DNA of 64,000 nt, taken from positions 62,001-126,000 of the forward strand of contig CANQKM010000006.1 of assembly GCA_947624485.1 (NCBI GenBank), given 5' to 3'. The stretch's first letter is position 1. Every line of letters begins with the position of its first letter. The stretch comes from an uncultured Clostridia bacterium. Its GTDB lineage: Bacteria; Bacillota; Clostridia; UBA1381. A program made the position numbers and the translations under genes. This document shows, piece after piece, positions 41,764-64,000 of the stretch. The notes beneath the pieces were generated by a model. It worked only from the letters and a program-made list of their open reading frames with translations, ran no database searches and was not told where the DNA came from.

Positions 41764-41862
41764 AATAAATGGGCAATTATACCCCTTTTTTGGGGATTTT
41801 GCATATTTGCAGCAAAGGCATGACAGCATGATTAAACCATAATTTTGAAAAATTAACAATGA

Positions 41863-41872
41863 AAGGAGGGGG
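41863..41872 (+). promoter_or_regulatory. Ribosome binding site that selects the GTG start at 41877
   Basis: AAGGAGGGGG lies about five bases upstream of GTG 41877-41879. The ATG at 41859 precedes the ribosome site and would translate through it, so GTG 41877 is the preferred start. Confidence 0.8.
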
Positions 41873-41876
41873 TAGC

Positions 41877-44800
41877 GTGAAGCATAATGCCGCAATGAAC
41901 CGTATTGTGGCAATGTGGATGATTTTTTGTATGATGATATCCTGCTTCGGAGTCAGCGTTGCTGCTGATGAAGACAGCGATATTCAAACAAACGGTAACA
42001 TCTCTTTTGAAGGCTTTACCTTCAATTACAGAGAAGACAATTCAATACAGGCTACAGCGGATGTATATGTGGAAAATCTTGCCATGACTACCATGACTAT
42101 CGGATTGAAATATCACGATTACATAGTCCCCTCCGAGTTGGATACGAATATAGACAGCACGGATGTTGAAAAGGTGTTTAAGGTTACCGATGAGAATGAC
42201 ATCAGCAAATATTTTCGGATAATGTACAAAACGATTGATCCGACGGAGAAAACGATATATATTATGCTCACGCTGGATCAGGCATTGGTGGAAAATGCAT
42301 TTAAGGACACAGAAGTAAGTGAGACGGATGTTATAACAAACCGTTTGTATTCACATCCCGATACGATAGATCAGTGGCACATAAACGCCTGCAGTCCGGA
42401 GCATAAAAAGGTCAAAATCGGAACGATAAGCTTTAAGGTCACAGACTCCGCACAGCTTATAAAAGTTCCGCAGAATCAGATCGAGTCAAGGGTTCTCGAA
42501 AGTATTCAGGCGAACGATAACGACCTTTTCGGAACGGCGGCGAGATATTCATCGGGCAGCACCCATTACGACTCTCTTGTAACGAATTCAAGCGTCACCA
42601 TCACGATTGACGCGCAGAGAACGGACGCGTCGGCTACGATACCGAGAAGCACCGTATCGGCTTACACGCTTTATAAGAGTTGCTCCAAGCCGTCCGAGGC
42701 GGGTACGATGGACGCGCTCTATGACTATATCAACAGGAATATGAGCCGCGTTAAGGTTACAAAGGCTTCGGGTACTCAAAGCATAGGCGAGCTTATAAAG
42801 TGGACGCATACGGATGAAGTGCCGGAAAATAACGCGGTGATACAGTTCGTTGAAGGTATCAAGCCCATGGTCGAGGAGACATTCGAGAGTGACGCTCAGA
42901 CGCTTACTGCCGAGAATTACAGCGCGAAGGGCAACAGGACGTACATGATTAAGCAGCCGTATATGAAGGATCCCGAGCAGATTATAACGATCTTCCTGAC
43001 GGTTACGCCGTCGGAGCTTACGGGCTTTGAATACGACAGACGCGTTAAGGTATTCGGCAGCAGCGAACAGCCGGATATTACATGGGATAAGCTTGAAATG
43101 CCGGATCCGATAACGGCTGTGGTAACAGGCGTGGACGACGAGTATGTTCCGCCGGAGTATAAGCCGACAGAGAACGATTGGAGATACAATCATGACGGTT
43201 CAGAGGTGGATGCGAATGACGGCGTTACCGCGCTTAATGAAACATCGGGTTATCCGATTACGGCGCGGTTTACCACCAAATTTCCGGAAGAGAAGCTGAC
43301 AGAACCGTGGCTAACGATCCCCGAGGACTTTGACTATACGGTAGACGCGTATCGATATGTTGTTGACGAGGGCAAAGTATCACCGCCGAAGGACGATGAC
43401 GGCAAAGGTAATACCGACATTACGGCAAGGATAATCTATGATGAGACAAACCTTAACATTGATATGCCGGGTACGCTTGAAATTACAGTTAACAAACTCG
43501 GCGATGCTACAATAGCGGAGAATACAAAGTTCAACATCTACCTCCCCAACGGATGGGTACTGTCGAGCGATGAAAGCTATGTTGACGTAGACATTCATGA
43601 CGGTACGGCTACTATCAGAGTGAACGCTATGGACAATACAAAGCATGGAGAAGGCGACAAGTATGACGACGCGCAGCGCAGGGAGATACAGAGTCTTATA
43701 AACCTCGGCAGTGAAAACACATTCAAGCTCAGCGAGCTTTTACCCGACGACCATGTTGTTGAAAGTCCGCTGTACAGGTTCAGTTTCGATAAGCGCATAA
43801 ACCGCTATCTCGACGACGACACGTACTTTGAGTATTACGTTGAAGAGAACCACGCGCTGATTGCTCCCGACCATGTATCGGTTGAGACAAATCCCGAAAC
43901 GGACGGATATATCGAAAAGGACTATTCGGAAGGACGCGCGGGGCTGTTCACGGTATATAAAGGTCAGTCGTTAAAGGATATATCGAGCTATATCGAATTC
44001 CCCGACGACAGCACAATCCCTGTGATGTATCACGGCAAGGACGGCTATCAGCCCGCGGAACTCAGTGCGGCGAAGGTTCAAGAGGACGATGAAGGCATAG
44101 CATGGCGTATTCTTGGCAATGAGACTGCCGACGCTATCCCTGCCGACCAAAGCGGCAATATAACGCTTGTGGGTACGCTTGAACAGTATTCCTACACGAA
44201 TTTTGACAATGTCACAAATCCGCAGGGTGTGAAACTCTACTTGAAGCTCACGCCGATAGATCCGTCGAACCCGTCGGAGTCACCAAGTCCCGACGCGAGT
44301 CCGACGCCGGATGTAACGCCGGATCCCGACGCCACGCCCGATCCGAACGCGAGTCCCTCTCCCGTTCCGGGCGAAGCGATAGAGATTTCGACAAAGGTTC
44401 CGCCCGGCTACGGGGCGTATAAGGTGGTTATGAACAACAAGACGTTCCAGTACGACACAAAGAACGTCGGCTACAGCCCCTCGCAGCGTCAGACCTTCAC
44501 AATAAAGAATATCGGCTCTGTCGATATTGCGGGACTTACGATGCGTATCGCGGATATTACGGACACGGGAGGCAGCTTTAACGGCAGCGCGGCTAACTTT
44601 ACGGACAGCGTTCCGCTCGACATAACAAAGCTCGCGCCCGACAAGACGCTCACAAAGCTGTATTCGCAGCAGTACAACGAGATTGACGTTGAGCTGCGTC
44701 CGCTGATGTCGCTGCCTGAAGGAACGTATAAAGCGCGTGTAATAGTCGGTTCGAGAATGAATAGCGACCTCGCGCATTTTGACATTGAGTTCAAGGTTGT

Positions 44801-47800
44801 GAGCGCGGACAGGAAGCTGTATACGGTCACGGTCGATAACTACAAGACAGCGAAGGATCCAAACTCGGGATTATCCTCAATCGGCGTGGCATACCTTACG
44901 GATGGAAGCGGCGGAACGGTTTACTCGCAAACGTTTGAGGAGGGCGATACCGTTCCCGCGACGGTAGTTGTACTCGACACCGAAGGCTACGACTTTGATT
45001 GCTGGATAGGATGGGATACGGATACCGAAATTGATACATGGGGAACCGGTAGACCAGGCAATCCTTTGTCTTTCGATATGCCGGCGTATGACTTGACGAT
45101 AAAGCCTGTATTTAAGGAAAAAACCGATTTGTATTTAAGACTTGCCGACCTTAAGGATTACACGATAGTTAATATGTCGGACAGAGTACAGGACAGAGAA
45201 AATCCCCTGCGCGACACTCCGACAAGCGTTACGGCGTTTAACGAAACGCTGCATACATACTATGTTGTTGTCGACTATCCGGACGAGGATAACTATGTGA
45301 AATTCGGCTTGAAAAAGTATTTGACAGGCATGAACTACACGGTTACGCTCAGATATGACGGCGAGGAGACGGAGCAAGATATTAAGAATGATCCCGATGA
45401 TGTGGTTGAAGAAAGCAGCCAGATTGCGATGCACAAGTCGAAGGACTTCAAGCTCCGGGAAGGTCATAACTATGTTACCATTACAGTTACATACAACGAC
45501 GGCGGTAAGGAATACAAACAATCATACCAGATAATTATTCACAGAAGAAAAGCGGAGGTAGACGTCAGATGGCGGCCGGGCAACTCGCCCTACGGTCTGA
45601 TAGCCGCGCAGTTCGCGGACAAAGCGGACAGTGAGAATCCGACCGAAGCGGCACAGGCTCAAGCCGACGAGCTTGAGGCAAAGCAGCGGTTTACGGAAAA
45701 CCACAGCTTTATAGCCTTTGACGGCGACGATAACCAATACACGAGCGATTACACACCTCTTACGGCTGTCAATACGTACGACACATATTACAGCACCGAG
45801 GCGTGGAAAAATTCGGACGTCTACACCGGCGCAAGCCACAATGAAATAAACTACGATGAAGTGGACGAAGCGCTGTTCGTCTACAACAAAACGACCTTCG
45901 TCGATCCCGGCTTCACAGCCGTGTACGACGACGAAGGCAGACCAATCAGCGCTAATGATATAACGCGTGAGATACATGACCTTATACTGATTAACGATGG
46001 TCAAGCGCTCGATACCGGAGATTTGATCGGGTTGGGTAACCTGACAAGCCTCGGCGCAAAATTAACAAAGCAGAGCGTATTGCAAATTTCCGACACGGAC
46101 AAGGATAAGGCCGACGGCTCGTGCGTTATAGATGAGCTTAAAAACCTTAACGTACTGCCCGGCGTATACTCACTTGTATACAAATTCAAGGACACAACGT
46201 TCGACAACACAACGGGACTAACCGCATCGTTCGAGAGACCGCTGATTATACTGCCCGAGAAGGGCGACGTAAACGTTGACGGAAATGTTAATGAAGCCGA
46301 CGCGAACATACTGTATCAGCGTCTTAACAACAACGGCACAGACCAATACAAGAGCTTTTACACGGATGTTATAAACGGCGCAAACGCATGGCAACGGCTG
46401 CTCTCGTACCGTGTGGGTGACACGAACGAGGACAGAAACGTGAACTCCATAGACGCGAACGCCATACATAACACCGCGGAGCTTACGCGCTATTACGAAC
46501 AGCTGCCGACCGAGAAAAAGACGGTCGACGCACCGGCGGAGAACGCGCCTAAAACGGTATGGCCCGGCATGACGGCAGCGGCGGACAAAAGCGGCTTCAC
46601 ATACACCGAACCGTACGATATACCGGACGACAAGCCGACACTCGTGCTTGACTATCTCGGCAACGGAGCTATACCGCAAAAAACAAAGGTTCAATACAAG
46701 CCTGACCAACTGGAAGGCAAGGTAATATGGTTCGGAGTAGGCATAAGAGATCCGAAAAAGCTCCGATACTTTATCGACAACGGTATTAACAGCCTCGACG
46801 TCGCGGTTGACTACGACGAGGACATACTCGTACCGTGCGACAGCACTTCCGGCAATGCCGGCAGCGATATAGACAAGCATACGTACGCGGAATTTGTGCG
46901 AAGTCAAAACACAGATCCGGCATACGCACCGGGCATGACTGACAGAGACGTCGCACTATGGAATAACGCGGAACTGTACGAGAACTCTTTGCAGACCGAC
47001 CTAAACCTCAGTACAGCTGACTACGGCGGTGACACAAAGGAAGACCGCTACAAATCGGTATTCATCACGATCCGTTCAAAGGACGGCAAATCGCTGAGGC
47101 TGAAAGGTCTCGAAAATATTCACGACGCCATTGAGGACAACACGATAGAGACCGACACGATATACCTTCTGCGTATACCGTTCCTCGTGAAAAAGGAACC
47201 GCAGGAGGGCTACACGGGACTTGCCGTCACAATAAACGGCATAACCGAGCAAACGTTCGTGATGGGCGCGGAAGCAAGAGGCGCGCCGAAGGGCGTATCA
47301 TGGGAAGGCGCGGACGACAAAACCACAGCCAACCTGATAAAACCGAAGGAGCAAAACGCCTTTAACCACTTTAACGGCATAGACGTGCAGGACTTGTTCG
47401 ACACGGACGACCGCTTTACGTTCAAAGGCTTGCTGCACGGCTGGAACCCGATTGAACCGTTCAAGATAAAGTTCTACCGCCAAAGCGACGACGGCGCGAC
47501 GGAGACGCTTTACAAGACGTTTACGTCAATCGAGAACGACCTCTACACGAACGGCAAAACGACTGTCACGACCGCCGAAGGCGAGGTGACGTGGGACTAC
47601 GAGCTGCACGACATACCGGTCGCAAAATACCGCGTACAGGTCGAGAAGCAATCGCACGTGACCTACCCGTACATGACGGTCACGCCCGACGACATCGTCC
47701 CCGACAGCGGCACAGGGACGGGTACGGTTACGCAGCCGGACATGCTCAACCTAATCGTCGGCGACATCAACACCGACACATACATAAAGGACGTTGACCG

Positions 47801-47993
47801 CGCGTACCTGATACACACGTTCAACCAGTCCCGACCGTGGACGCCGGAGCTTGCGGAACGGTTCGACCGAAATGACTTAAACGGTGATCACATGGTCAAC
47901 ATGTTCGACTTAAACCTGCTAAGTCAAAATTACGAAAAGAGCTACCCCGTTGAATCGGCGGGAGAAGAAGAAGAAGGAGGAGGCGGCGGATAA
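41877..47993 (+). CDS. Secreted multidomain protein with two dockerins and possible cohesin-like modules
   Basis: 2,038 residues from GTG 41877. A hydrophobic signal peptide (~1-29, ending V-A-A before D-E-D) is followed by a cohesin-like beta module (~35-200, with I-G-L-K-Y-x-x-Y-I-V-P-S and I-G-T-I-S-F-K-V). Next come uncharacterised beta-rich sequence, a Pro/Asp/Ser linker (~799-838), an Ig-like domain of the Hydin/ASPM type (~840-978), an InlB B-repeat-like domain (~980-1082) and a cadherin-like domain (~1083-1228). Then follow dockerin A (~1462-1545), a second possible cohesin-like module (~1582-1798, S-L-D-V-A-V-D-Y-D-E-D-I-L-V-P), a CnaB-like domain (~1842-1942), dockerin B (~1957-2023) and a Glu/Gly tail. 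No enzyme domain is seen. The first ~620 bases are more AT-rich than the rest. It overlaps the next gene by one base. A weak lipobox-like M-I-S-C in the signal peptide leaves a lipoprotein possible but unlikely. Confidence 0.92.
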   Translation: MKHNAAMNRIVAMWMIFCMMISCFGVSVAADEDSDIQTNGNISFEGFTFNYREDNSIQATADVYVENLAMTTMTIGLKYHDYIVPSELDTNIDSTDVEKVFKVTDENDISKYFRIMYKTIDPTEKTIYIMLTLDQALVENAFKDTEVSETDVITNRLYSHPDTIDQWHINACSPEHKKVKIGTISFKVTDSAQLIKVPQNQIESRVLESIQANDNDLFGTAARYSSGSTHYDSLVTNSSVTITIDAQRTDASATIPRSTVSAYTLYKSCSKPSEAGTMDALYDYINRNMSRVKVTKASGTQSIGELIKWTHTDEVPENNAVIQFVEGIKPMVEETFESDAQTLTAENYSAKGNRTYMIKQPYMKDPEQIITIFLTVTPSELTGFEYDRRVKVFGSSEQPDITWDKLEMPDPITAVVTGVDDEYVPPEYKPTENDWRYNHDGSEVDANDGVTALNETSGYPITARFTTKFPEEKLTEPWLTIPEDFDYTVDAYRYVVDEGKVSPPKDDDGKGNTDITARIIYDETNLNIDMPGTLEITVNKLGDATIAENTKFNIYLPNGWVLSSDESYVDVDIHDGTATIRVNAMDNTKHGEGDKYDDAQRREIQSLINLGSENTFKLSELLPDDHVVESPLYRFSFDKRINRYLDDDTYFEYYVEENHALIAPDHVSVETNPETDGYIEKDYSEGRAGLFTVYKGQSLKDISSYIEFPDDSTIPVMYHGKDGYQPAELSAAKVQEDDEGIAWRILGNETADAIPADQSGNITLVGTLEQYSYTNFDNVTNPQGVKLYLKLTPIDPSNPSESPSPDASPTPDVTPDPDATPDPNASPSPVPGEAIEISTKVPPGYGAYKVVMNNKTFQYDTKNVGYSPSQRQTFTIKNIGSVDIAGLTMRIADITDTGGSFNGSAANFTDSVPLDITKLAPDKTLTKLYSQQYNEIDVELRPLMSLPEGTYKARVIVGSRMNSDLAHFDIEFKVVSADRKLYTVTVDNYKTAKDPNSGLSSIGVAYLTDGSGGTVYSQTFEEGDTVPATVVVLDTEGYDFDCWIGWDTDTEIDTWGTGRPGNPLSFDMPAYDLTIKPVFKEKTDLYLRLADLKDYTIVNMSDRVQDRENPLRDTPTSVTAFNETLHTYYVVVDYPDEDNYVKFGLKKYLTGMNYTVTLRYDGEETEQDIKNDPDDVVEESSQIAMHKSKDFKLREGHNYVTITVTYNDGGKEYKQSYQIIIHRRKAEVDVRWRPGNSPYGLIAAQFADKADSENPTEAAQAQADELEAKQRFTENHSFIAFDGDDNQYTSDYTPLTAVNTYDTYYSTEAWKNSDVYTGASHNEINYDEVDEALFVYNKTTFVDPGFTAVYDDEGRPISANDITREIHDLILINDGQALDTGDLIGLGNLTSLGAKLTKQSVLQISDTDKDKADGSCVIDELKNLNVLPGVYSLVYKFKDTTFDNTTGLTASFERPLIILPEKGDVNVDGNVNEADANILYQRLNNNGTDQYKSFYTDVINGANAWQRLLSYRVGDTNEDRNVNSIDANAIHNTAELTRYYEQLPTEKKTVDAPAENAPKTVWPGMTAAADKSGFTYTEPYDIPDDKPTLVLDYLGNGAIPQKTKVQYKPDQLEGKVIWFGVGIRDPKKLRYFIDNGINSLDVAVDYDEDILVPCDSTSGNAGSDIDKHTYAEFVRSQNTDPAYAPGMTDRDVALWNNAELYENSLQTDLNLSTADYGGDTKEDRYKSVFITIRSKDGKSLRLKGLENIHDAIEDNTIETDTIYLLRIPFLVKKEPQEGYTGLAVTINGITEQTFVMGAEARGAPKGVSWEGADDKTTANLIKPKEQNAFNHFNGIDVQDLFDTDDRFTFKGLLHGWNPIEPFKIKFYRQSDDGATETLYKTFTSIENDLYTNGKTTVTTAEGEVTWDYELHDIPVAKYRVQVEKQSHVTYPYMTVTPDDIVPDSGTGTGTVTQPDMLNLIVGDINTDTYIKDVDRAYLIHTFNQSRPWTPELAERFDRNDLNGDHMVNMFDLNLLSQNYEKSYPVESAGEEEEGGGGG
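46256..46510 (+). other. Dockerin A (internal)
   Basis: Two calcium-loop repeats, G-D-V-N-V-D-G-N-V-N-E-A-D (from 46263) and G-D-T-N-E-D-R-N-V-N-S-I-D (near 46422), are each followed by a short helix with A-N-x-[I/L]. Their spacing is larger than in classical dockerins but the loop residues are well kept. An internal dockerin is less usual than a terminal one. Confidence 0.75.
47400..47960 (+). other. CnaB-like domain followed by dockerin B (C-terminal)
   Basis: A beta-sandwich with F-K-G-L-L-H-G ... Y-E-L-H-D-I-P-V-A-K-Y-R-V-Q-V-E-K is followed by I-V-G-D-I-N-T-D-T-Y-I-K-D-V-D and D-L-N-G-D-H-M-V-N-M-F-D-L-N. This is the same domain pair that ends the giant protein at 41575, which suggests a shared anchoring or assembly mode. 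Here the two loops are at normal distance. Confidence 0.75.
47974..47983 (+). promoter_or_regulatory. Ribosome binding site inside the preceding gene
   Basis: AAGGAGGAGG ends nine bases before ATG 47993 and is read as Glu/Gly codons of the upstream gene. With the TAATG junction (47991-47995) this points to coupled translation. Confidence 0.8.
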
Positions 47994-50452
47994 TGAAAGA
48001 CATGGCTAAAAGGGCATTGGCACTCATAGCGGCACTGACCTTAGCACTGCCGTGCCTTGCTTTACCCGCCGCCGCCGAAAAGGACGACGGCACGGTCGAG
48101 GAGCAAACACAGCCCCTCACGGTAGTCGCAAAGCGCATAACAAACGACGACACCTATTTCGAGATCAGTCTCGAAGTAAACGAGGACTACGACAAATACT
48201 CCTCCGTGGGCGTTGTACTGCGCTACGATCCCACCTACATCACACCTGCCGACTCATGGGCGGAGGACGCACCGGCGGCGGACATGAGCGAAAACACCTC
48301 ATGGGCGACGCGCCGCGCACTGCCGACGCTCGGCGTTGACACGTGGACGACGCACACCGCCCTTGCGTACGAGGAAACGGCACCGCAGTACGGCGCGGAC
48401 AAACCTTACGGCTACCTCTACCTCGGCGCGGAACACCCGCGTCCCGAGGAAGGCCCTAACCCCGACGCGACGGTCGAACCCGAACCGGGGCTTGAACCGA
48501 AGCTCGGCGAACCCACAACCGATCCCGAAGCGGCGCCGAAGCCCGAAACCGGCACAGCGCCGGTTGTTGCCGCGCGCTTTGTGTACAATGCCAAAGGCGA
48601 AAAAACGGGCGAGGACGTGCGCAAAGACCTCGAAAACGCGTGGCTCAAGGGTACGAACACCACAGAAAGCATAGTGAAGGACCACCCCACAAACTGGGAC
48701 TACGACTGGTACGCGAACGACATCCTCACAATCGCAAAGGACGAGGTCGCGCAGGAATCGCCGGCGCAGTACCCGTTTGTAATATACACGCAGAACTACG
48801 AGGAAAAGGCGTTTATGCATAAATTTCCGGAAACCGTTATGACGTCGGCGGAGCTGCGCTCGGTTGACGAATACAAGCACGTTGTGGGAAGCAATATAAC
48901 GACGGAAAACAAGCTCAATGCGACGGATATAAGTATCATCACGCTTGTGGGTGACAGCGCGCTCAAAACGGGCGGTCTGTCGCTCAGCGACATATACACT
49001 ATCCTGTTCTTCGACTGGGACGATTCTCTTCTCGGCACACTTACGGCGGGCGTGGGTGAAGACCCGACCGAGGCTGTGCATAATTATACAAAGGAGAAGT
49101 TTATCCACCCCGACCTGCGCGAGCTTGACTATTTAAGCATGTCCGAAGCGGATAAGAAGAAACGCGCAAACAACTACCGCGGCGAATACCCCGAGGACGC
49201 TCCCAACGGCAGTAACCCGCTCGCAAAATCGGGCGCGTACGGCGACGAGGCGGAAGAACCCGGCTCGAAGTACCCGCTGACGAATAAGCTTGACTACGCT
49301 TTCGCGGGCAAGAACCTCGCAGACGAGGATCACCCGTATACCTTCGCGTACGGCTGGACGCAGGTGCTGCCCGAAGCGCCGGATTACAGTGACAAGGACA
49401 AGTACCCGGGTAAAACCGCGGATATTTTGCCGAAGGCTATGGAGGATACATTCACAGCGGAAGCGCCTAGTGAAAATCAGACATACGGCTGGGCGCCGGA
49501 GCTTGACGAAACAACAGGAGAGCTAAAAAACCCCGAAGACACAATCCCTACATGGATAGCATGTGATTTTTCAAAGATAACGAAAGAAGACATCGACGCA
49601 AGCGGAGGCAACCTATATGTAAAAGCTGTATATACAGCTTGTGAATGGTTGTCAAGGGATAATGGCAGTTCGTATGCCGATAACTATACGGCATTCGGAC
49701 CTGCAAAGGTTGAGGTACTTACATCAACAGCAACCAATTCAACTTACGGCATCTCTTTTTCCTATGAGCGTATTAACAGCTACGGACACGGAGTATATCG
49801 AATTACTGATCCGAGAGTTACAATGTCAATGACGCAAATCGGAGCGGCGGCAAGCACACCGATTGAATTAAAGCTCGACAATGAGGACGTCATGCCCGTA
49901 AGATTGACACCGTCAAACGCTGTGCAGTCGGTTGGCTATCAGTTGTTGGATGAGGACGCAATTCTTGGCGGAAAAAGAAGTCTTGAAAACGGAATTGACG
50001 GAAAGCCGTTTCAGCTTTCGGGCGGAGACGGAATAATATATCAGTTTAATCTCCAATCTCTGTTTGAGTTAGCTATGGAGCATGTGCAAAAGGTAATCGA
50101 TACAGGCGTACCATATACCGACAGTTCAAATAATTTGGAATACAATAATCAATGGACAGACAGTGCAACATGGAGCGGACTTAAAATATACAAAAAGGAA
50201 TCGGCAACTAAGACGACGGCAATTTCGGGATCAACAAATTTACGACTGGCGCAATGCGCGATAGTAGAGCTTATGGTAAAACAGCATGAGCTCGGCAGAG
50301 AATACAGCGATTTGACATGGTTTCAAATGCAGTATTTTGTTCTAAAAAAGACTGCAAAAACTACAAAAATCGACTATATTGAATCGGCAGATGCGGAGGC
50401 ATATCTCCGTGAGAATAATCCGCTTATTATTAAAGAATATGAAAGTTTATAA
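47993..50452 (+). CDS. Secreted protein with cohesin-like module and degenerate dockerin-like repeat
   Basis: 819 residues. A clear signal peptide (M-K-D-M-A-K-R-A-L ... L-P-A-A-A, cut near 28) is followed by a cohesin-like beta module containing V-G-V-V-L-R-Y-D-P-T-Y-I-T-P-A-D-S (~65-90). This is interrupted by a Pro/Glu/Asp linker (~148-186) between the strands G-Y-L-Y-L-G-A-E and P-V-V-A-A-R-F-V-Y. Residues ~297-345 form a degenerate dockerin-like pair (N-K-L-N-A-T-D-I-S-I-I and G-L-S-L-S-D-I-Y). The last ~300 residues are unrecognised. From about 49530 the DNA becomes clearly more AT-rich (24/60 G+C in 49561-49620 against 40/60 in 48481-48540 by hand count), so the gene looks mosaic. It shares one base with the gene upstream and is followed by a strong terminator. 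Confidence 0.9.
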   Translation: MKDMAKRALALIAALTLALPCLALPAAAEKDDGTVEEQTQPLTVVAKRITNDDTYFEISLEVNEDYDKYSSVGVVLRYDPTYITPADSWAEDAPAADMSENTSWATRRALPTLGVDTWTTHTALAYEETAPQYGADKPYGYLYLGAEHPRPEEGPNPDATVEPEPGLEPKLGEPTTDPEAAPKPETGTAPVVAARFVYNAKGEKTGEDVRKDLENAWLKGTNTTESIVKDHPTNWDYDWYANDILTIAKDEVAQESPAQYPFVIYTQNYEEKAFMHKFPETVMTSAELRSVDEYKHVVGSNITTENKLNATDISIITLVGDSALKTGGLSLSDIYTILFFDWDDSLLGTLTAGVGEDPTEAVHNYTKEKFIHPDLRELDYLSMSEADKKKRANNYRGEYPEDAPNGSNPLAKSGAYGDEAEEPGSKYPLTNKLDYAFAGKNLADEDHPYTFAYGWTQVLPEAPDYSDKDKYPGKTADILPKAMEDTFTAEAPSENQTYGWAPELDETTGELKNPEDTIPTWIACDFSKITKEDIDASGGNLYVKAVYTACEWLSRDNGSSYADNYTAFGPAKVEVLTSTATNSTYGISFSYERINSYGHGVYRITDPRVTMSMTQIGAAASTPIELKLDNEDVMPVRLTPSNAVQSVGYQLLDEDAILGGKRSLENGIDGKPFQLSGGDGIIYQFNLQSLFELAMEHVQKVIDTGVPYTDSSNNLEYNNQWTDSATWSGLKIYKKESATKTTAISGSTNLRLAQCAIVELMVKQHELGREYSDLTWFQMQYFVLKKTAKTTKIDYIESADAEAYLRENNPLIIKEYESL

Positions 50453-50800: not shown

Positions 50801-50816
50801 TGCGAGGTGCGAGAAA

Positions 50817-51173
50817 ATGAAAACAAACCCAAACCAAAACAAAAATCTCACCAAATACGCACGAACATTAAGGAAAAACATGACCAAAGAAGAAAAACAT
50901 CTATGGTATGATTTCCTAAGAACATTATCAATACCTTTTTATCGTCAGAAAACAATAGAAAGATATATTGTCGATTTTTATTGTCCGCAGGCAAATCTTG
51001 TAATAGAGCTTGACGGTTCACAGCATTATGAAGATGACGCAAAGGCGAAAGACAATGTACGTGATGATTTTCTGAAAGATAGAGGATTAACAGTATTAAG
51101 ATATTCAAATCTTGATATAAATACACAATTCAGAAGTGTATGTGAAGATATTTTGAAACACATCACTCTATAG
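50817..51173 (+). CDS. DUF559 family protein (Vsr/PD-(D/E)XK-like endonuclease fold)
   Basis: 118 residues from ATG 50817. Upstream in-frame codons run through the repeat and are not used in this model; GAGGTGAGAAG and GCGAGG lie just upstream as possible ribosome sites. The family signature is plain: A-R-x-L-R-K-N-M-T-K-E-E-K-x-L-W near the start, then F-Y-R-Q-K-T-I-E-R-Y-I-V-D-F-Y-C, V-I-E-L-D-G-S-Q-H-Y and L-R-Y-S-N-L-D-I. The D of V-D-F and the E of I-E-L-D are the likely metal-binding residues of the PD-(D/E)XK fold. The substrate is unknown for the family. The gene is AT-rich, its TAG stop touches the right repeat, and near-identical repeats flank it, so it may belong to a mobile repeat unit. 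Confidence 0.88.
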   Translation: MKTNPNQNKNLTKYARTLRKNMTKEEKHLWYDFLRTLSIPFYRQKTIERYIVDFYCPQANLVIELDGSQHYEDDAKAKDNVRDDFLKDRGLTVLRYSNLDINTQFRSVCEDILKHITL

Positions 51174-51333: not shown

Positions 51334-51340
51334 AAAGGAG
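51334..51340 (+). promoter_or_regulatory. Ribosome binding site for the 51349 gene
   Basis: AAAGGAG lies eight bases before ATG 51349 and fixes that start; the earlier in-frame ATG at 51217 lies inside the repeat element. I see no convincing promoter between the repeat and this site. A TTGACA at 51308 lacks a good -10 box. Confidence 0.8.
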
Positions 51341-51348
51341 TTAAATCA

Positions 51349-54300
51349 ATGAAAAAACGACTGCTTAGCGCATTACTCGCGCTTTCTATGATTTTTTCGA
51401 TAATTCCTAATTCACTGGGGGGGGGTGCTGACGGCATCTGCCAAGCAGGACACAGCCACTGAAGATGAAGTATTATATAATCTTGTAAAAGGCTTTCAGT
51501 TTAAAGTAAGCTCTACTGGAGAAGTTACAGATTTTCATGTAAAGATAGACACACAATCTATTGACGGTCAACTGGGCATCTTGATTCTCTCTAATTTTGA
51601 TATGGATGATTCTAGTACTACAGAATATGGTGATATAGTCGGTAGTTGTGAAGAGTATATGACAGGCGCAACACCGATAGACGAGGCTTTAACATGTCCG
51701 GGTGTATATTATCTATTAGATGGAACAAGCGAAAATCTAAATAAAGACACTGATTATTCACTTTCGCCCAAAAACCAAACAGAGACAAATTTTACCCTTG
51801 ACGCTATCAATGCCGTTCGAGATGGTAATGGTGTAGACGGATTTCCGGAAGGATACGAGTGTCCTATTGGTATTATATTCTATAATTTGTCCAGACAAGA
51901 GACAGATTCCTATCTTGCAACGATAAAAATAGGTGAGGACAATACAGTTACCGGCGGCGATTACGAGAGTGAACCGGCAGGAAATAAAACCATTACCGAC
52001 GTAGATCTCGACGGTGCATTTAGTGCGTTTGCAAACGGCAGCGAGCTTGCACTGACTTCGCTTACAAACGTTCAGGCAACCGTTGACAGCGTTACGGATT
52101 CAAGAGCGGTAAACGCAAATCAGACCGTAGAGTGGACAAAGAACGGAGGTCCCACGAGCGGTACGGTTACAGCCGGAGAGTATAAGGCGAAGATAACGAT
52201 TGCGCCGAATGACGGCTATGAGTTCGGCACGCTTACCCCGGAAAACATAAAGAATGTCGGCGGCAGCGGTATTGTAACATCGGTCACAAAATCGGGCAAC
52301 AGCCTTGTAATCGAGATTACATTTACCGTAGTGGAGAGCGATCAAGTAATTACGCATATAAAGGGCAATCTTACCGCTCCTGCCGTTAAGACCACGCCGG
52401 ACACGAACGCCGCCGAGGTACAGGTAGCGCCCGACGAATCATCATACGTGAACGCGAATAACACAACTCCGGAAATTACGTGGAGCGAAAACGCGACGCG
52501 GCTGGAAGGCAAGCCTGCCGCCGGCGCGGGCGAGTATACGGCAAAATTTACCGTAACGGCTCCGAACGGATATAAGTTTGATGAAGGACAAACTCCGACA
52601 GTAGTGACGCCGGCAGGAGCTAAAGAAGCGACCGCGGAAGTCAAAAATGAGAGTGAAGCGGAAGTGACCGTTACCTACAACGAAATAAAGAAAACCGCTG
52701 ACGATATCAGCGTAGACAGTATTAAGTATACCGAAGTAACGGTGGGCGGCACGTATTCAAACGCGTTCCCCGAGGTTACCATAACGTATAACGACGGTTC
52801 TACTGTCAAGGCGTCTAACAACGTCGACTATGCCAGGTATGATCTTCAAGTTGACGCTACTGCTATTCCTGAAGTAAGCGTCAAGGGCAATGTTGAAGGT
52901 ACGCAGCTTAACACAGCCAATAGATATGATGTTTATGTTGAATATATCGGCGACAAGACCGATCCGGGTGCATCACTGAGAAAGAGGATAGAAGAGGTCA
53001 ATGTTACATATGAGGCTTTGGGCGATGTAAATGTCAGCGTCAAGCTTCCGACTGTCGGTGAATTGGCTGCACAGATTAACCACGGCGACAGAGAATTGAC
53101 AGCCGTGCTTGCCGCTTCGGGCGACGGTATCAATGACGAAGAAACAACCATTGAATGGTTCAATGATCAGAACTGTGAAAGCGGTCTGGGCGATGCGACG
53201 TTCCCTTACGGCGGCGAATATTATGCAAAGATAAGCATAAGCGCGCAGGAACCGGGTTATAAATTCAACCCCGGTGCACCGCCGACCGTTACGTTCGAAA
53301 ACACGGACAGCTTACATTCATCGGAGGATAAATCGACGATTACGGCTGAACCGATATCGGTTACAGTAGATCCCGATAATCCCGCCGCGCTGACGGCTGT
53401 ATTTAAGGTTAATATGCCGAAAGCACCGAATATTGTAAGTGCTGAGCCGTCCCCGTACGACTATTACAATGATAGCCAAGACTTGAAGATTACACTCAGC
53501 AGGGATCTCATAAACGGCTTGAACGGCACGAATATACAAATAGGTACTGATAACGTTCCCGCCTCGCTTACAGATCAAAAAACTATCACGGTGACGGCTG
53601 CGGAGGTTAGGAAGTTCTTACAGCAGAAGTGGGGAACGAGTGCAGACAATCCGCTTACCGCGTCGCACGTTCAGGAAGAATGGGATATTCATATCCCGAT
53701 CGAACGCTCCGGCAATACCATTGACGGTACAGCTGCGTTCAAAGCCGTCAACACCACCCCGTATTTGACGATAGAAAAACCTGAACATGGTTCGATTGAG
53801 GTCAAGGAAACGGCAGGCTCGGGCGAAACATATACCTCAGCCGGTACATATCCGCTCAAAAAGGGCACGAGTTATACCATTACCGCAAAAGATGACGGTG
53901 ATTACAAGTTCAAGTCATGGAATGCAGGAACACCCGGAGCGGGCGACGAAGCTACTCGTACCTTCACCCCCGCCGCCAGCGGCACCTACACCGTCGGCGC
54001 AACCTTTGAGGGACCGATAGAAATGACGGTAAGTGCGGACAACGGCACGGTGACAAGCGTAAAGGAAGACGGCGACGGCGGCGAGACTATCAGTGAGGAC
54101 GGTGGTACGTATAAGATTTACCCCGGCAAAAAGTACGTTGTAACCGTTACGCCCGGTGATGATTACAAGTTTAGTGATCCGGCGTGGACTGTTGCGGATG
54201 CTACGCTTTCCGACGGTTTGGACGGCGGACAGACATCAGGTGCGCGCACCTATACCTTCACCGCCCCCGCCACCTCCTTTACCCTCACCGCTAATTTGGT

Positions 54301-57300
54301 GTTGGATACAAAGACGCTGACGATAAAGAAAACCGGCGACGGTACTATTACCGTGAAAAAAACGGACGGCAGCGAGATTAGCGGTTCTCCGGGCAGTGAC
54401 GGCATAACCACTTATGAAATCAAGAAAAGTGATTGCCCCGTTACCGTTACGGCGACAGCGGACAATGCTTATAAGCTGACAAAATTCGGCAGCGATGTAT
54501 TACCTGCGGTACAGACAAAGGACACGATATATGACGCCTATGAAAATGTGCCTGCCGATACTGTTGACGTTACATTTACCGCGAAGGTAGTTCCCGATTG
54601 GGATGATGCGCAGACATCGGATAGAGGAGCAAGACACCAGAAGAATATAACAGTCGGCGGTCTGAAATATACGCATAACAATTCTGCCGATTATACCTTC
54701 AAGGAGTACAAGATTACCGGTCCGAACGGCGATACACAAAAAGCTTCCGGTTCCGCACTCACGAGCAATACACTTACGCTTGATGATACTACGCTTGATT
54801 TGTATGATGAAGGTACATATACCGTTACGTTTACCTTCACGGACAATTTGGACAGTGGAAATTCCACTCTGGAAAAGACCATAGATCGCCAGTTTGAGAT
54901 TACCGGCGCACCGAAGGTTAGCAGCGTAACTTTGCCGTCAGGCAAGGTTCATGGCGACAATTTGGGTACGTTTGAATTTGCGCTCGATAACGGTAGTACA
55001 TATAAGTATACCGCGGGCAGCGGCTGGGATCATGAACCGCCGGAGAGCATTAAGGTAAGTGTAGGCGGTGCGAGTGTTATATCGCTGAGCGAATTTATTA
55101 CAAAGTATGTTCAGACAGGTACCATAGTGCGCTATCAGGCAAAGTCCGGCGGTGGTGATGCACATGCTACACTTTGCAATGGTGATAGTATTGCGGTAAG
55201 TATTCCGGGTACAACACCCGCAACCGCAACGCTTGAGGTCGGCCAGAAGACGGTTACGCTGGAAGTTACCAATACAAATCTTGATAAAACATACGACGGT
55301 GACAACCAAGTAAAGGCAGAGCTTACGTGGAATGCAAGCGATACTCCGATAAATGATGATAAATCTGCGCTCGGCGATACGTTTACAGATACCGACAAAA
55401 CCTCAAACGGTCTTACCGTTAATGGTACGTATCAAGGCGGTGCCAACGCGGACGAAAGTAATAATAAGACGATTAAATTTAATGTAACTAAAGATCCGTC
55501 AAAAACAGAGCTTGAGAACTACGACATTACAGTAGAAGACGGACAGGGCAAAATAAATAAAAAAGAAATCACTGTATCGGCTGAAGCGTTTAAGGAGGAT
55601 ATTCCCGAAGCGCCTTACGGTGAAGCCTCTACAGGTCAAAGGACAATACATGGTTTGAAGGACGACCAACTTGAAACAATTGACGCAAGTAGCGGTATAG
55701 ATGTTCAATATACGTATACGTATAAGAACGGAACCGATACCAACGTTGAAATTTCAAATGCGACCTCGACGAACTATACTATTATAATAAGTCCGAATGA
55801 AACTACAGGTTCACGTGCAAAGAGAACGGTACAGAGCATTGAGGTAACGCCGAAATATACAGCGACGGGCGCTTTCTATTCGTCCGACACGTTTGACGCG
55901 ACGATTACTATCAATTATACCGACGGCGGAGCTGCCGATACGTATCCGAGTATTGAGGCTGCGCTTGCGACCGATAGCAAAATCCAATCCGTAACATGGA
56001 ATGGTGTGGCAGGTGTTTCTGACGCGCAGAATACGAAACTTACCGTTGCCGGCTATAACGGAAAAACCGTTACCGCAACGGTTAAGACTGACGCGGTTGA
56101 GGCGGGCGACGTTACATCCGGCACGAGCGCAGCAATCACAGTTAAGAGAATTCCGGTTGTTGTTACGGTTATGGCGACAGATGGAATTTCAAAGACGTAT
56201 GACGGTACAAAGACGTTTACACCGGGTACGCACACGGGAACCTTGTCATACACCGCTGAGGTAGACGAGTCTGCACTAGGCGCAGCCGGTGTTGCCGTTA
56301 CTGACGACTATAACATGGGCGACGTAACCGCAACAGGTGCGACGGTTGAATTTGCGCAGGCGGATGTTTACGATAAGACATACAACGGCGGCGGTGTTCA
56401 GTATTCCGATATTGCAACGGCAGAGGAAGGCACACTTAGCGACGATACAGAGTACGAAGTTAAACAGACCGTTTCGCATATTGAAGAAGCACAGATTACA
56501 GCGCTTACTATTACGGTTAAGCAGATTGACTACATCAAATCCGTAAGAGTAGGTGCTGCCGGTGTGCGCAAAGGTCAGGCTAAGGTTGCAGCTGTTCCGG
56601 GCAGCGCGCCGCCGGAAAGTGAAGGCTACACAGCATTCGTCACTCTCAATAACGACCATGGTGAGCAGGACATTGCCAAAAAGGATAATCTGCTGTTCGA
56701 TATTAAGTACGAGTACGATGATACAAAGACAACGCATGAGAACAACAGTGCGGAGGTAACGCTTCATTCGGTTACGCTTGCGGACAGCAACACCAAGAAA
56801 GACAACTATACCTTTAAACCTCTTGAAAGCAAAGAAGATGCTAACAGTGTTGACGGTCATGGTACGGTTACGGCAGCGAATATCGAGAGTGTTAAACTGA
56901 CGCTTCCGTCGTCGCTGAATCCCTCTGACGGCAACGGTCATATGGTCTACGGTGAGGGAGAATATAAGGACTTCCAAGGCGATGACTATATCGGCTTGAC
57001 AGTTGTAATAAACTATAATGGTTCAGACGACACGGCTACATATGTATTGAAGAAAAAGGACGGCGGCAGCGAGTATGAATGGCAGGTAACCGAAACAGGC
57101 GTTGAGGGTACCATGTCCGCCGACTTCGGAAATCAGCCGTTCACGCTTAAGTGGAGCGGCGCGGATTTGGCGGGCGGAGATCCGCAGGATGTAGCTTTGG
57201 GAACTCCCTTTACATGGACGTGTGAAAAGAACGGAAGACAGCTTACCGCCGCAATAGATGAACAACACGATACAAAAACTATCAATGTAAATCCGAAGCT

Positions 57301-60300
57301 GCTGACGGTAACGCCGAAGTATAGTAATGGCAGCGACGGCACCACTCCGACAAAGAACTATGACGGAGGTTACAGTATACTTCCCGCAGGATCGTGGACG
57401 TATGAGGTAAGCAACGCTATTGCGGAAGACGGCATTGCTGTTGAGCTTGCGGAAGGTAAAAACCCCGCATATCTCAGCAAAGACGCAAGCACAGGTGATA
57501 TATCAATTAAATTCGGTGAGTCATATGATGGAAATATACATGATGACGACTGGAAGATAACAGGAACAAATAATACCAGCTACAAGATAGGCACTCTGAA
57601 TGACGCTAAGGGTAAAATCAATCCACGCCCGCTGACGCTTGTAAGTATCACAGACATTCCGTCTGTTGACCAGTTCTCAGCTCTTCACAAGTACGAGAAC
57701 GCTGTAGCGTCAAACGTAAGCGGCGGCGGTAGTCAGGCAAAAGCTAATTTTGCGGGTAGAGTGGACACACCCGAAGGTCAGGGCACAGGTCTTGTAGGTG
57801 ATGATCAGGTAAGCATAACATATGATTATACGTACACCGATACAAGTGAAGCCGGTGACGTTGAAGCGGCTGATAAGCTGACTATCGAAAATGTCAAGCT
57901 GCAAAGCGGCATAAACAACTACTCGCTTAATGATGTTGACGAAGGTACGCTTACACGAAAGGGTTCGGTAAAGGCGGCAGAAGTTACGGATGTTACTATC
58001 GAAGAGCCGACTATGTACGAGGCAAGTAAAACTGCGTATGCAGTACAGGTGGGCGATAAGTATGACTATGCCGGTCTTGAGATAACACTGCATTATAGCG
58101 GCGGCATGGATGTTACATATAAGCCGGAGACATATAAGGAGGCACCCGATAAGGGCGTAGCAACATGGACGGTAACGTATTCTGACAGACCGGGACATAC
58201 CGAAACCGGCGTGTCAACAGTGCCGTTTGAGTTGACGTGCGATCACGGCGGTCATGCTCAGGGCGAAGCGCTGAATGAAGTTACCGAAGGTCATCCCGAA
58301 TCAGGAAAGCTGCAGGTAAAAATCAACGGAGAAGAGAAAGCGACAACTACAGATACCCTCGATGTATTTCCGCGTAGAGTAACGGTAACGCCGACCGGCG
58401 ATATTTCCAAGACTTACGACGGTACGACGGATTATGCTGTGGAAAACGGCGCGATTACGTATGAACTCACAGCCGATGAGACGGCATATAACGATTCGTA
58501 CTCGCTTCCCGAGGGTATATCCGCGACGGCAGATGCGAGTGATATTAAATTTGATTCGGCAATCGCAAGCGGTAATGTTGGCGGCGCGACGAAGGTTACT
58601 ATAAATAATATCAAACTTACATCGACCGATCCTTCGTGGGAAACTGACAAAGGCAAATATCAATTTATATCAGGTGATGCCGGCGCTGACACTACTACCG
58701 CTACCATCACTCCCGCGACGATTAACAAGCGTTCGGTAACGATTACGGAAGTGCACAAGCTTCCTTCGGTAGTACAGGGTTCTACACCGACGGAACAAAC
58801 AGCCGAGAATGTGACGACGAACGAAACAAAATCGCCTTACGCGAAGGTAAGCGGCGAAACACCGGTTGCAAATCCGGGCGGCGTGAACGAGGAACTTGAA
58901 CTTACCGTTAGCTATCAGTATGAAAACACAAAAACCGTGACGGATGAGGATAAAGCAAATGTAACAATCAGCGAGGTTAAGGCTAAGACGGGTTCTAATA
59001 CCGAGAGGAATTATACCGTAACAGCTGATCCGAGTGTAACAGGTCACGGTACGGTTACGGCGGCGAACTATAGTGTTGAGGTTACAAACCCGAGCCAGTT
59101 TACCGGCGGCGGCTACGAGTTCAACGAGGACGGTCTTAATGTGGACGGTCTGACGGTTAAGCTTACGAATACCAATCCCGCCGCTTCCTCCGATACAACC
59201 ACGTATTACGCGGTTAAGGATGCCGACGGTAATATAGAGTGGCGTACGGATAAGGATAATCCCGAATCAAAGGTTGAAGTTCCGCCGTTTACGCTTAAGT
59301 GGAGCGGAGACCATGTCGGTGCAGGTACGGACGTTAAGCCCGGTATGAAGCTCCCGCCCGCGCAGTACAACGGCGCACAGCTTACCGCGACGCTGACAAC
59401 ACTGAATACCGATCCCTCAAAGCCCAGTAGCGCAAGCGGCGATAAGGTTACGGTAAATAAGAAGAAGATTGATACCGTAACGGCATCAGGCGATGATATT
59501 GAAAAGGTATATGATGGTAATACGGACGTTACTAAGCTCATCACATACGCTATACCCACAGACCAGACTATAGATGGTACACCGGCGACGCTTACGCCTG
59601 ACGTAACGGCGAAGTATGCGGATAAGAATGTTGCTGACAATATTGCAATTAAATTCACGCTCAACAATAAGACCGCTAATACCGATCCCAACTATGAGTT
59701 TGCGAGTGAGGTAACTATCGCAGATCTTACGGGTAAGATTACAAAGAGAACGGTTAACGTTACAGACGTGTATGTTCCGGGCATTACCGCAAATTCTTCC
59801 GATCCGCAGCCAACGGTTACTGTTACGGACGCGAAGGCAGTAACTACATCTAGCGGCGTTCTTACGAGCAAACAGGTTCGCGCGAATAACTTTGTGACAG
59901 GTGAAGAATCGTACTTTACATTCTCTTATACGATAACGTACAGAGACGGTGACGCGAGAGGCACATCGGGTGCGACAAATCCTGTATTTGTCACAATGTC
60001 AGGTAATACATGTGAAGCAACGCCAGAAGCTGCGGCGAATAATGTAAGCATTAACAACTATGAGATTCAGTGGACGGATGTAGAAACTAAATCAAGAAAG
60101 AGTACAGATGCTTCAAGCAGCATAGACTGGAATGCTCTGCATACGGCACAACCCGGCGAAAGCCAGTCGAGTTACCTGCTCGGTAATGTAGTGGCTGATA
60201 CGTACAAAGAGGTTTCGCCTCCGACCGATGCGGGCAACAAGATTACGTCGGAGGTTAATCCGCACAAGCATGGTGATAAGCTTGACCTTACAGGCTTGAC

Positions 60301-63300
60301 AATTAACGTAACATCAACAACTTACGGAGAATTAGAGTATAAGATTGCCGGTGAAGCGGGTGCGCAGTATTGGACGAGTGATGGTAGCAGTGAGGTTACA
60401 CTGCCCGATGGAATTGCGGTTCATATAGGAAATATTCCGATTACAACAAAGGCCGACCTTGAGAATCTTCAGGCGCACTATACCAATATGAACGGTAAGG
60501 ACATCATCTTGGAGGTAACAGGTCAACCCGCGAAAACATCGGCCAATAAGGTTGTAGTTAAGCAGGCAGAGCTTCATGTAACTGCTGACAATACCGAGTA
60601 TGATAAGTACTACGACGGCAATGATAATGTTGTCAGCAGCTTTACGCTTACACCGACAGATACGGAGCTTGTGACATTTACAAAGAACAGCTATAAGGAC
60701 CAAGTAACCGTTACAGGTACCGCGAAGTATGCAAGCGCGGATGTTGCGGGTACGGCGGCTGCACCGACACAGCAGAATATTACATTCACCTTGACACCGG
60801 GCGGAGATGATAAGGACAACTATATATTGGTTGCGCCCACAGACGTAAAGGGTAAAATCAATCCGCGTACGGTTGTTGTGAGCGAGTTCGGCGATAACGT
60901 AAAAGCGGATGACGCGACATATAACGACACGTCTTCGGCAACCGGCGAGGTTGACAACATACCGGGTACAACAGGCAGTGTAAACGGTCAGTACACGTAT
61001 ACGGCGAAATCCGAGGAAGGCGCATGGCCCATTGGTCTTGCCGCGCCTACGATTAAGGTTACATACGATTACGGCAGCCTTGTTTCAAACAGTATAGGCG
61101 AGGTAACGATTGAGAAGTCAGGCACAGTAAATAGTGATCACTTCGATGTGGAGCTTAGCCACGCAACGAATAACTTTGTACTCGACACCACGGCTGTAAC
61201 CGAGCTTAAGGGTAACGTTAAAGCCGCCGCGATAACGTCGCTTAATGTTACAAAGGGCAAGACAGATTATTACTACGGCGACAAGCTGACGGACGCAGAT
61301 CTTGCCGACCTCGAAATCACGGTAAACGGTACCGACACGTTCAGCTATTTTGCAGGCGGCGAGGTAAATCCGAAGTTTGCGCACTACGGCTTAACTCTCG
61401 AGGTTAAGAACGGCGACGGTACGACTGTAAGCGATCGCGATACCGATGTGCTTAAGAATGGTACGGCACAGGCGAAGATTACGGTTTCGGGCGGCGGACA
61501 GTCACAGGATGTTGAGCTTACCGTTAGCAAGCGTAAGCTGGTTGTTAAGGCAAGCGGTGAAGTTACGAAGGAATACGACGGAAAAACGGATGCAAACTTA
61601 ACAGATAAACTTACAATAGCGCCTAAGGAGGAACAAGGCGACGCAAGCGACGGCTACGGTCTCGCGGATGCGGATGAGGCTCTTGCTACAACTGCCGGTG
61701 GTTACACAACAGCGTTTAGTGTAACCGCGACAGAAGCAATGTACACTAAGGGCAGCGCACCTGTTAAGGACGCGTGGGTAAGCGGAGATTCGTATAATAT
61801 TACCGCTAACGTAACCCTTGGAACTACTACCGATATACCGACAGACCAGTACGAGCTTGAGCTTAAGGACGTTAAGGGTAAGATCACCCCGAAGCCGGTA
61901 ACGCTTACGCCGGTATTGCAGTATACCTACTACATAAAGAACGAAGCGGAGACTATTACGAGTGAACAGAAGTACACAGCGGACGCATTTGTAAGCGGTG
62001 AGGAAGCGTATTATAACTTTACCTATACCGTTAAGCTGTCGGCAGACACGCATAATACGGCAGGAGCCAAGTCAATCACCGCCGCGGCAGCTTTAGGTAC
62101 AGGCGATGATGCGTATAAGAGTACAACGGTTGACAGCAGTACCGCAGACGGATATGAGTGGGAAATCACGGCAACGAACGCGGAAACCTACCCGCTTACA
62201 AACTATACGTTTACAAGAGCGAATGCTTCGATAACCATCTCAAACAGAGAGTTTGATCATGCGTCAATAGTCGAAACAGACAGACATATGCAGAGGACGT
62301 ATCGCTCCGGCGATGGTGTAAACTTTAAAGATCTTGAAGTAAGAGTTTACTATAAGAATGACACGACCTTCTATACCTCGTATGTATTCGGTACAGAAAG
62401 CTGGAACAACAGCTTTGAGATTGTGAATACAGACGGCGATACAGTAGTAAGTAACGGAACTGTTCTTACAACAGCCGACGACGGTACAACGTATAAGGTA
62501 AAAATCGGTACACGCTCCGGCGGCGAAGCTGTATATACGGATAATGCGACATCTCCGATAACCGTAACGGCAAATGAGCTCAAAGTAACGGCTGTTCAAA
62601 GCGGAACACCGTCGAGACCGTACAACGGCACGGCTGACGCGAGCATGTTTGTAAAGTACGAGTTTACCGAGGATGCGAAGGCTTTGATAGCAGGTAAGAC
62701 CGTAACTATCGATAGCGATACCGCAGCGGAGGTATTCACGGATTCAAATCCGTCGTACGTGGGAGTTGATAAGCCGATAGGTATTACGGCGACCGACAGC
62801 TCGTTCACGCTCGGCGGCGCTGATGCGGCGCAGTACACCGTTAAGTGGGTTCCCCCGACAGGACTTAAGGGTACGATTGAAAAGCTCAATGTTACGATTC
62901 AGTCGCTCCCGCTTGTGAGAGCAGGTATGGACAGCGCGGCGACAAGCGGCGTCGAGGTTGAAGCTCCTTCCGCGTCGATAGGCGATGACGCAAAAACGTA
63001 CGTTGTTCTTGATCCCGGTTCCACAATGCCCGAGGCGGATAAGCAACAGTTCAGCGCGACATGGACGGCTGTATTTACGCAGGAACAGATACAATCCGGT
63101 TCTACCGACGCAGACGCTCCCATGAATTTGACGTTCAAGAAGGACGGCGACGCTGATGTATATCCGGTTGTAAAAGACAAGAGCGGCAACACAGAGCTGT
63201 TTACGGAGAACTACAACTTCACGTGGCCCGCTCCGCGCGGTATAGTTGTTCCGTCGGCTATCAGGATAAGCCATTCGGACTACACGCCTGTCACATCGGT

Positions 63301-64000
63301 ACATGGTAATGCGTTCAACCTTGACGGAATTAAATTTACCGTTGAATATAAGAACGATATCGACATGGCTAAGATATTTACATTCCGTCACAAGGACGGT
63401 AAGTGGCAGGTTGCCGCCGGTGAAGATGTTATGACGGATTCGTCGTTCAAGGATATAACCGACGACGACTTTGCGAATAAGTACGGCATACAGCTTCAGT
63501 GGAACGCGACAAGCTCGACAGCAGAGTTGGTTCCGAGCGGCGCTGTAACCGGCTATGCAAACCGCGGTTTGTATAACGGTAAGCCGATTGTTATCATGGT
63601 TGCGAGCCATAACGGCGACGGTAAGTATGAAATGGCTGCGACAAATACGGTAACAATCAATCCGCGTTACATTTACGCGTTTGTACGTAAGTATACGGAC
63701 GGCACGAGCTCTACCCCTGTACAGCTTGATAAGGAGTATGACGGTACGCCGTACGCGGATCCGTCGGGACTGGAGTTCGAGTTCTATGACTTCACGACAA
63801 ATAGTAATGCGGGTAATGATGCAGAAGACAACTCAGGATTTAACAAGTATACATCCCCGTTCGTCGGTGAGACGCTCGCGATAAAGAAACCCGCGAAGGG
63901 TGTACAGTCTGTGGGCGATCAGCTTAAAGCGGAGTATCTCGGCGGTGAAAATGCTTCTTATAAGAAAGCTGGCGACTCGTGGGTACAGTGCAATATTGAC
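51349..64000 (+). CDS. Giant secreted InlB-repeat / YDG-repeat protein, signal peptide out of frame at a G9 tract (3' partial)
   Basis: ATG 51349 opens a clear signal peptide (M-K-K-R-L-L-S-A-L-L-A-L-S-M-I-F-S). After nine G at 51417-51425 its frame ends at a TGA (51460-51462), a 37-residue product. The other frame, starting L-T-A-S-A-K-Q-D, is open from 51425 to the last base, about 4,217 residues in all; I translated it without meeting a stop. With eight G the two join and give a normal cleavage site (A-S-A before K-Q-D). Domains: a unique AT-rich N-terminal module (to ~51960), three modules with a G-E-Y-x-A-K-I/F strand (52000-53340), three InlB B-type repeats (53764-54595), then composite YDG/Big_3-like units to the window end. 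No catalytic domain is seen. A surface stalk or adhesin role is inferred. Confidence 0.88.
51417..51425 (+). other. Run of nine G in the signal-peptide region
   Basis: This homopolymer separates the signal-peptide frame from the main frame of the gene. Loss of one G, or gain of two, puts them in one frame. G-tracts of this length are known slippage sites for phase variation and for transcriptional slippage, and are also frequent assembly errors. Confidence 0.85.
53764..54595 (+). repeat. Three InlB B-type (bacterial repeat) domains
   Basis: Copies begin near 53764 (L-T-I-E-K-P-E-H-G-S-I), 54023 (M-T-V-S-A-D-N-G-T-V) and 54310 (L-T-I-K-K-T-G-D-G-T-I). The first two have a central Y-x-[I/V]-T-[A/V]-x-x-D-D-x-Y-K-F. 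Each ends in a strand before an A-x-F/L/K-V-type exit. These are known beta-grasp-like repeats of Gram-positive surface proteins. Confidence 0.75.
55200..64000 (+). repeat. Composite ~1,056-bp units with a Y-D-G motif, nine copies seen
   Basis: The Tyr codon of the [K/R]-x-Y-[D/N]-G motif lies at 55292, 56198, 57359, 58415, 59510, 60611, 61574, 62621 and 63737. Spacings are 906 to 1,161, with a mean of 1,056 bases (352 residues). Each YDG domain is followed by a strand of the form G-K-I-[N/T]-[P/K]-[R/K] and a variable domain. Most units also have a Big_3-like domain with a pattern such as Y-x-x-G-D-x-x-D-x-x-G-L-x-[I/V]-x-[V/L]. Copies are diverged in sequence while keeping the order. The array continues past the window. 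Confidence 0.8.

Follow-up and report, generated by a model that had tools for sequence, protein, structure and literature searches.

The sortase-dependent pilus switch bbr_0113/bbr_1889 of Bifidobacterium breve UCC2003, in which the lengths of a G tract have been measured, is the closest published case to the locus described here; its authors also mention further G tracts, some of them in promoter spacers, and cite the fimbriae of Haemophilus influenzae as an example of promoter-spacer phase variation (PMC9187656, in the excerpts available). As in B. breve, which is likewise a gut commensal, a Sec signal and a surface body lie in two open reading frames with a G tract between them whose length decides the frame; unlike that LPXTG pilin of a bifidobacterium, with its measured tract lengths, our locus encodes a 5.7k-residue SLH protein of a clostridium and its switching is deduced. 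Promoter-spacer phase variation is also known from Neisseria and Bordetella. In systems of this type a repeat between the -35 and -10 elements changes promoter strength, a layout shared by 16 of the 66 tracts found in the genus studied here, whereas the locus in the window would act through the reading frame and not through promoter spacing.

A 5' homopolymer is also responsible for the frameshift that inactivates a surface protein in Listeria, namely the poly(A) tract of inlA (PMC2831843, in the excerpts available), and our locus is similar in having a 5' homopolymer and a frameshift in a surface protein gene. It differs from the general findings of that survey as excerpted, in which poly(G) was underrepresented and no 5' bias was seen, in that the tract here is poly(G). 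In its accessible passages a 2025 review brings up Clostridioides difficile in connection with invertible promoters and with a signal transducer that is phase-variable, but not with homopolymers (PMC11868660). Among the matches listed in our search of the literature, mostly open-licence papers, no poly-G switch in Clostridia was found, which agrees with the remark in an earlier note on this DNA that such loci are described less often in this class. To our knowledge, phase variation in gut Clostridia has been described mainly for the invertible DNA of C. difficile. The kind of switch is known; this member of it and its genus-wide setting look new.

In this work a window of 64,000 nucleotides (positions 62,001 to 126,000 of contig CANQKM010000006.1, here C6, of an uncultured Clostridia bacterium) was analyzed together with related genomes. 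The best explanation, to which we assign a probability of about 0.8, is that a translational phase-variation (contingency) locus, working by slipped-strand mispairing, has its switch in a run of nine G in the window and has been recorded in the OFF state.

Tract, leader and body of the locus

The features of the locus are collected in Table 1. The frame starting at ATG 51349 encodes a positively charged start followed by a hydrophobic stretch and resembles, by eye, a Sec signal peptide. The earlier note had reported that this frame runs through nine G and stops after 37 residues with another frame open for the remaining 12.5 kb, and the sequence bears this out; the second frame in fact extends beyond the end of the window and runs, in coordinates of the window's contig, from C6:113404, 13 nt 5' of the tract, to C6:130617, which amounts to 17.2 kb and 5,737 codons, with no stop in the 5,729 codons read. 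With just 13 nt open 5' of the tract, the body frame lacks an upstream start of its own. None of its first eight ATG, GTG or TTG codons gives a signal peptide, nor is a clear ribosome-binding site seen by eye at any of them, and its N-terminal residues after the tract read LTASAKQDT. A conventional promoter scan found two sites 5' of the gene, where shuffled sequence gave 1.4 on average.

Table 1. Features of the locus and of a recurrent AraC-type tract; positions are those of the window unless a contig is named.
Feature	Position	Strand	Evidence or remark
2044-aa protein, type I dockerin domain	41859..47993	+	78% identical in G011
819-aa gene	47993..50452	+	G011 counterpart, 63% identity
Shine-Dalgarno AGGAG of leader	51336..51340	+	8 nt 5' of ATG 51349; same in G011
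Leader ORF, Sec-type signal peptide (by eye) then early stop, 37 aa	51349..51462	+	ORF translation; region 94% identical to G011 over 154 bp
G9, proposed slippage tract	51417..51425	+	Sequence read; G011:C42 has 8 G at equivalent site
Giant surface protein body frame (putative)	51404..64000, on to C6:130617	+	5,737 codons; SLH domains near C-terminus
AraC-type 3' tracts	G000:C1:94355 (L001), L027, L044, L060, L066, L071, L072		

The last 1,538 residues of the body match the Pfam domains SLH (E=2.8e-35), Big_2 and YDG and InlB-like repeats, and no pilin match appears among the Pfam results for this C-terminal part. The sole Pfam match in the first 4,190 residues is to YDG and lies below Pfam's cut-off. 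We read the body as a probable giant cell-surface protein anchored by SLH domains.

A chance origin of the tract was also considered. Runs of G or C in C6:1-166000 number 52961, 12468, 1864, 392 and 26 for lengths 1, 2, 3, 4 and 5; lengths 6 to 8 are absent, but a single run of 9 occurs. Codon usage in the five large genes of the cluster (45,567 codons, the tract left out) shows GGG to be the rarest glycine codon (24 of 4,004), and GGGGGG encodes none of the 270 adjacent Gly-Gly pairs in these genes; the one such pair in the gene of a sister species (G011) is apparently the leader's own. The decay in run length and the codon usage rule out a simple chance origin. In the window's whole genome (G000; 2.72 Mb in 35 contigs) there are 11 G runs of at least 7, five of which are of at least 9 (lengths 9, 11, 10, 11 and 9).

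Some observations were made upstream of the leader. A DUF559-type ORF at window 50742-51173 is flanked by short repeats of the CCCCTTGAGGGG type; it is missing by blastn from the corresponding gap in G011, where repeat DNA was found. The 819-aa gene gave no match in Pfam or NCBIfam. A single frame of approximately 33,033 codons (C6:4474-103575; window 2-41575) starts with a ribosome-binding site and a signal peptide, both recognized by eye. Its domain scan covered the first and the last 5,000 residues, with many RCC1 repeats found in the former and cadherin-like domains in the latter; its last ~2,850 residues are 90% identical in G011, and its end is dockerin-like by eye, yet no Pfam dockerin was reported there. 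A protein of some 33,033 residues would, as far as we know, be among the largest bacterial proteins.

The copy in a sister species and selection on the body

A DNA search with the leader matched five of the 16 genomes of the genus, and it was in this way that the copy in G011 was found. On contig C42 of that genome the upstream gene order is the same, with neighbours that are 90% (end of the giant protein), 78% (2044-aa protein) and 63% (819-aa gene) identical, and 144 of the 154 bases of the leader region match (94%). The tract has eight G in G011, and from the ATG a single frame stays open for 5,046 codons or more, up to the end of the contig. The length of the tract sets the frame: nine G lead to a stop after 37 aa, eight G in G011 to at least 5,046 aa. 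Tract length at this locus differs between two sister species, and intact copies exist. The G011 leader, MKKRILSALLALSMIFSIIPNSIGGGLTASAAD, reads IGGGLTASAAD across its tract, with the LTASA after the tract common to both species. The earlier note had predicted that eight G would join leader and body and create a cleavage site, and had proposed looking at tract length in relatives; the in-frame gene with eight G in G011 agrees with this, the site itself having been judged by eye on the G011 copy.

The two bodies are collinear from residues 449-5047 in the window to 407-5022 in G011, with 47% identity by blastp, and no blastp alignment between them was obtained before window 449 or G011 407. 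The alignment covers 4,414 codons and contains 5,013 differences. As 3.6% of single changes produce a stop, about 179 stops would be expected without selection (a very rough figure, counting both lineages) and none is present, and because of this we infer that any out-of-frame period of the gene in the window has been short. The overall dN/dS between the bodies is about 0.47, a rough guide in view of a dS of 0.93. A conserved leader followed by a fast-changing body would fit an exposed surface antigen. In addition, nonsynonymous exceed synonymous changes in two overlapping 200-codon windows at alignment codons ~2200-2500 (dS 0.03-0.05, dN ~0.09), which suggests either diversifying selection or recombination in this part of the protein.

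Two members of the genus, G004 and G014, have related leaders without a G run. A query with the start of the body (window 51428-52999) against 37 genomes recovered the window and, beyond it, no more than a 45% partial match in G004, and the same query over a wider contig collection, from which the locus's own records were possibly excluded, gave no confirmed relative. The pattern of leader plus tract matched five of 70 genomes of the family, those of the window and G011 being the present locus. Of the other matches, G306 has another leader-like start with seven G in frame, and in G407 a stop comes soon after a run of nine G; the match in G449 was rejected as not leader-like.

Poly-G tracts across the genus

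Runs of at least nine G number 66 in the 16 genomes of the genus and occur in 14 of them, the other two having no G run of nine. The fit of these tracts to a promoter spacer (TTGACA-spacer-TATAAT, spacer of 15-21 nt) was compared with 300 shuffles of the flanks: 10, 16 and 19 of the 66 fitted with at most 0, 1 and 2 mismatches, against shuffle means of 0, 0.06 and 0.81 (maxima 0, 1 and 5), and none did so at any of these levels in the opposite orientation. Fifteen of the 16 tracts at one mismatch precede ORFs with signal-peptide-like starts (by eye), and the ORF of the sixteenth runs off its contig; it should be noted that two of the 16, on contigs C19 and C27 of G011, are probably one place counted twice. 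The three promoter tracts of the window's genome lie at C1:304129, C2:263155 and C4:125870; the proteins encoded after them are a BspA-type leucine-rich-repeat protein, one with a GH26 match and one with a copper-amine-oxidase N-domain.

A stricter promoter pattern occurs in six of the 16 genomes (15 matches at 14 places, three of them in the window's genome) and in six of 391 class genomes, one of the six being the window's, and the reversed pattern has no match in either set. In the wider contig collection the promoter pattern is found in at least 119 stretches, the carriers among the matches listed including Clostridia, Bacilli, Saccharibacteria, Treponema, Microcystis, Streptococcus and others. 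A class relative with a 1.6-Mb genome (G404) has nine poly-G promoter matches (L085, L091, L095, L097-L102); five of the eight examined precede lipoprotein-like starts, which suggests that G404 may represent a second lineage with this habit.

The remaining 47 of the 66 tracts lie outside any promoter fit at up to two mismatches. Further tracts are found in or beside secreted-protein-like ORFs, and some are in repeats or have no clear context. As in phasevarions, G tracts break a DNA N6/N4 methylase (L053, G007:C191) and a Dam-like methylase (L017, G013:C9), and one precedes a cytosine methylase (L028, G008:C1). On G009:C81 (L020, L032, L054) four tracts lie within 15 kb, in or beside a hexapeptide transferase, two acyltransferases and one more ORF; the region has the look of a polysaccharide locus under switch control. 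AraC-type genes with a poly-G/C tract of 9-11 at their 3' end recur, by flank similarity, in seven genomes (Table 1); the C-terminal tail or the stop differs among the five of these seven that were read, Pfam having been run on one.

Another flank is shared by six tracts of 10-11 G (L021, L023, L035, L036, L073, L074), with TTGTAA or similar before the tract, TGTTAAAT or similar after it and then AAGGAG in most cases. These tracts are mostly 5' of long secreted-protein-like ORFs and are perhaps a second type of promoter. One of the ORFs concerned, a secreted-protein-like gene on G008:C4 (L074), has a G tract upstream and a second one, in frame, just past its signal peptide.

Signs of a change in tract length came from the promoter tracts. 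Two contig ends of G011, C19 and C27, overlap with 67 identical bases before the tract and 27 after it, and the tract itself has 10 G in one and 9 G in the other. The simplest reading would be that both lengths were present in the reads and broke the assembly. For nine of the 66 tracts a contig end is no more than 110 bp away, where 0.63 such cases would be expected; the number falls to seven without one contig whose end, with 53 G, was set aside as an artefact. This excess supports a change in length without proving it, because similar copies of a promoter could also break contigs. When promoter tracts of G000 and G011 were paired by a shared downstream protein, one pair had 11 and 10 (or 9) G with proteins 86% identical and a second had 11 and 11 G with proteins 98% identical; in a third pair the downstream proteins look different.

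Reading of the locus and its alternatives

Under the favoured reading, slipped-strand mispairing during replication would add G to the tract or remove G from it. At an ON length the ORF of the signal peptide would be joined to the body, and the giant SLH-anchored surface protein would be made and exported; at OFF lengths, among them the recorded nine G, translation would end just past the signal peptide and neither a full-length nor an exported protein would result. In the window's species the tract would then have to mutate often and in both directions, and the nine-G allele would have to be OFF in cells; switching may help in the gut, for example against phages, immunity or competitors. The earlier note had already taken the tract for a contingency locus, and this is supported by the intact relative, by the tracts across the genus and by the promoter tract recorded at two lengths. 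Its limits are that the leader tract was found by pattern in only two of 70 genomes of the family and that the ON allele comes from another species and not from another strain.

Where one tract differs by one base, a single fixed mutation or an error is another possible cause. If the true tract were uniformly in frame, the gene would always be ON and the ninth G would stem from sequencing or assembly. Homopolymer G runs are hard to sequence, tract lengths of B. breve in databases can differ from those in cells (PMC9187656, as excerpted), and an in-frame length is indeed present in G011. The same assembly, however, holds an uninterrupted frame of 99 kb, and an error would leave unexplained a tract made only of GGG in a gene cluster that avoids this codon, as well as the other tracts in promoters of the genus. 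Tracts in both promoters and genes throughout the genus, together with one tract at two lengths, make a switch likelier than an isolated error, which we regard as improbable. We give still less credit to a recent pseudogene fixed in the window's species by one insertion. The recorded frame is broken, and a single allele is known for this species; decay, which the earlier note had named as the observation that would speak for a pseudogene, was looked for and not found, the body being open over 17.2 kb and the gene intact in the relative. The rough dN/dS of about 0.47, at a dS of 0.93, also argues against it, as does the position of the break in a homopolymer shared with the intact gene of G011.

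The DNA might also be constant and a minor share of full-length protein be made at all times because RNA polymerase or the ribosome slips on the G run. RNA polymerase is able to slip on homopolymers, and in Buchnera in-frame mRNAs arise through transcriptional slippage (cited in PMC2831843, as excerpted). For G runs in promoter spacers, on the other hand, a change in the DNA is the natural reading, and the promoter tract at two lengths and the in-frame length in G011 also point to DNA; slippage of this kind appears about as improbable as an error. A switch in the DNA remains our preferred explanation of the locus.

With distinctly less assurance than for the switch itself, we lean towards the view that poly-G tracts make up a phasome throughout a genus of uncultured Clostridia living in herbivore guts, and that this locus is one of its switches. 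Independently of one another, some tracts would set the promoter spacing of secreted proteins, others the frame in which surface proteins, DNA methyltransferases and acyltransferases are read, and others again the tail at the C-terminus of an AraC regulator; at this locus a conserved leader switch would drive a body more variable than its neighbours, near a surface-type protein of 33,000 residues. The herbivore gut is deduced from names: four isolates (G011, G005, G008 and G010) are called 'Lapin', French for rabbit, and G003 is named Oscillospiraceae bacterium Zagget12, 'Zagget' occurring in the accessible part of a study of koala and wombat faeces.

If this is true, genomes from single isolates misreport which surface proteins a clostridial genus makes, and tract length in metagenomic reads would be a simple read-out of selection on surface proteins in animals.
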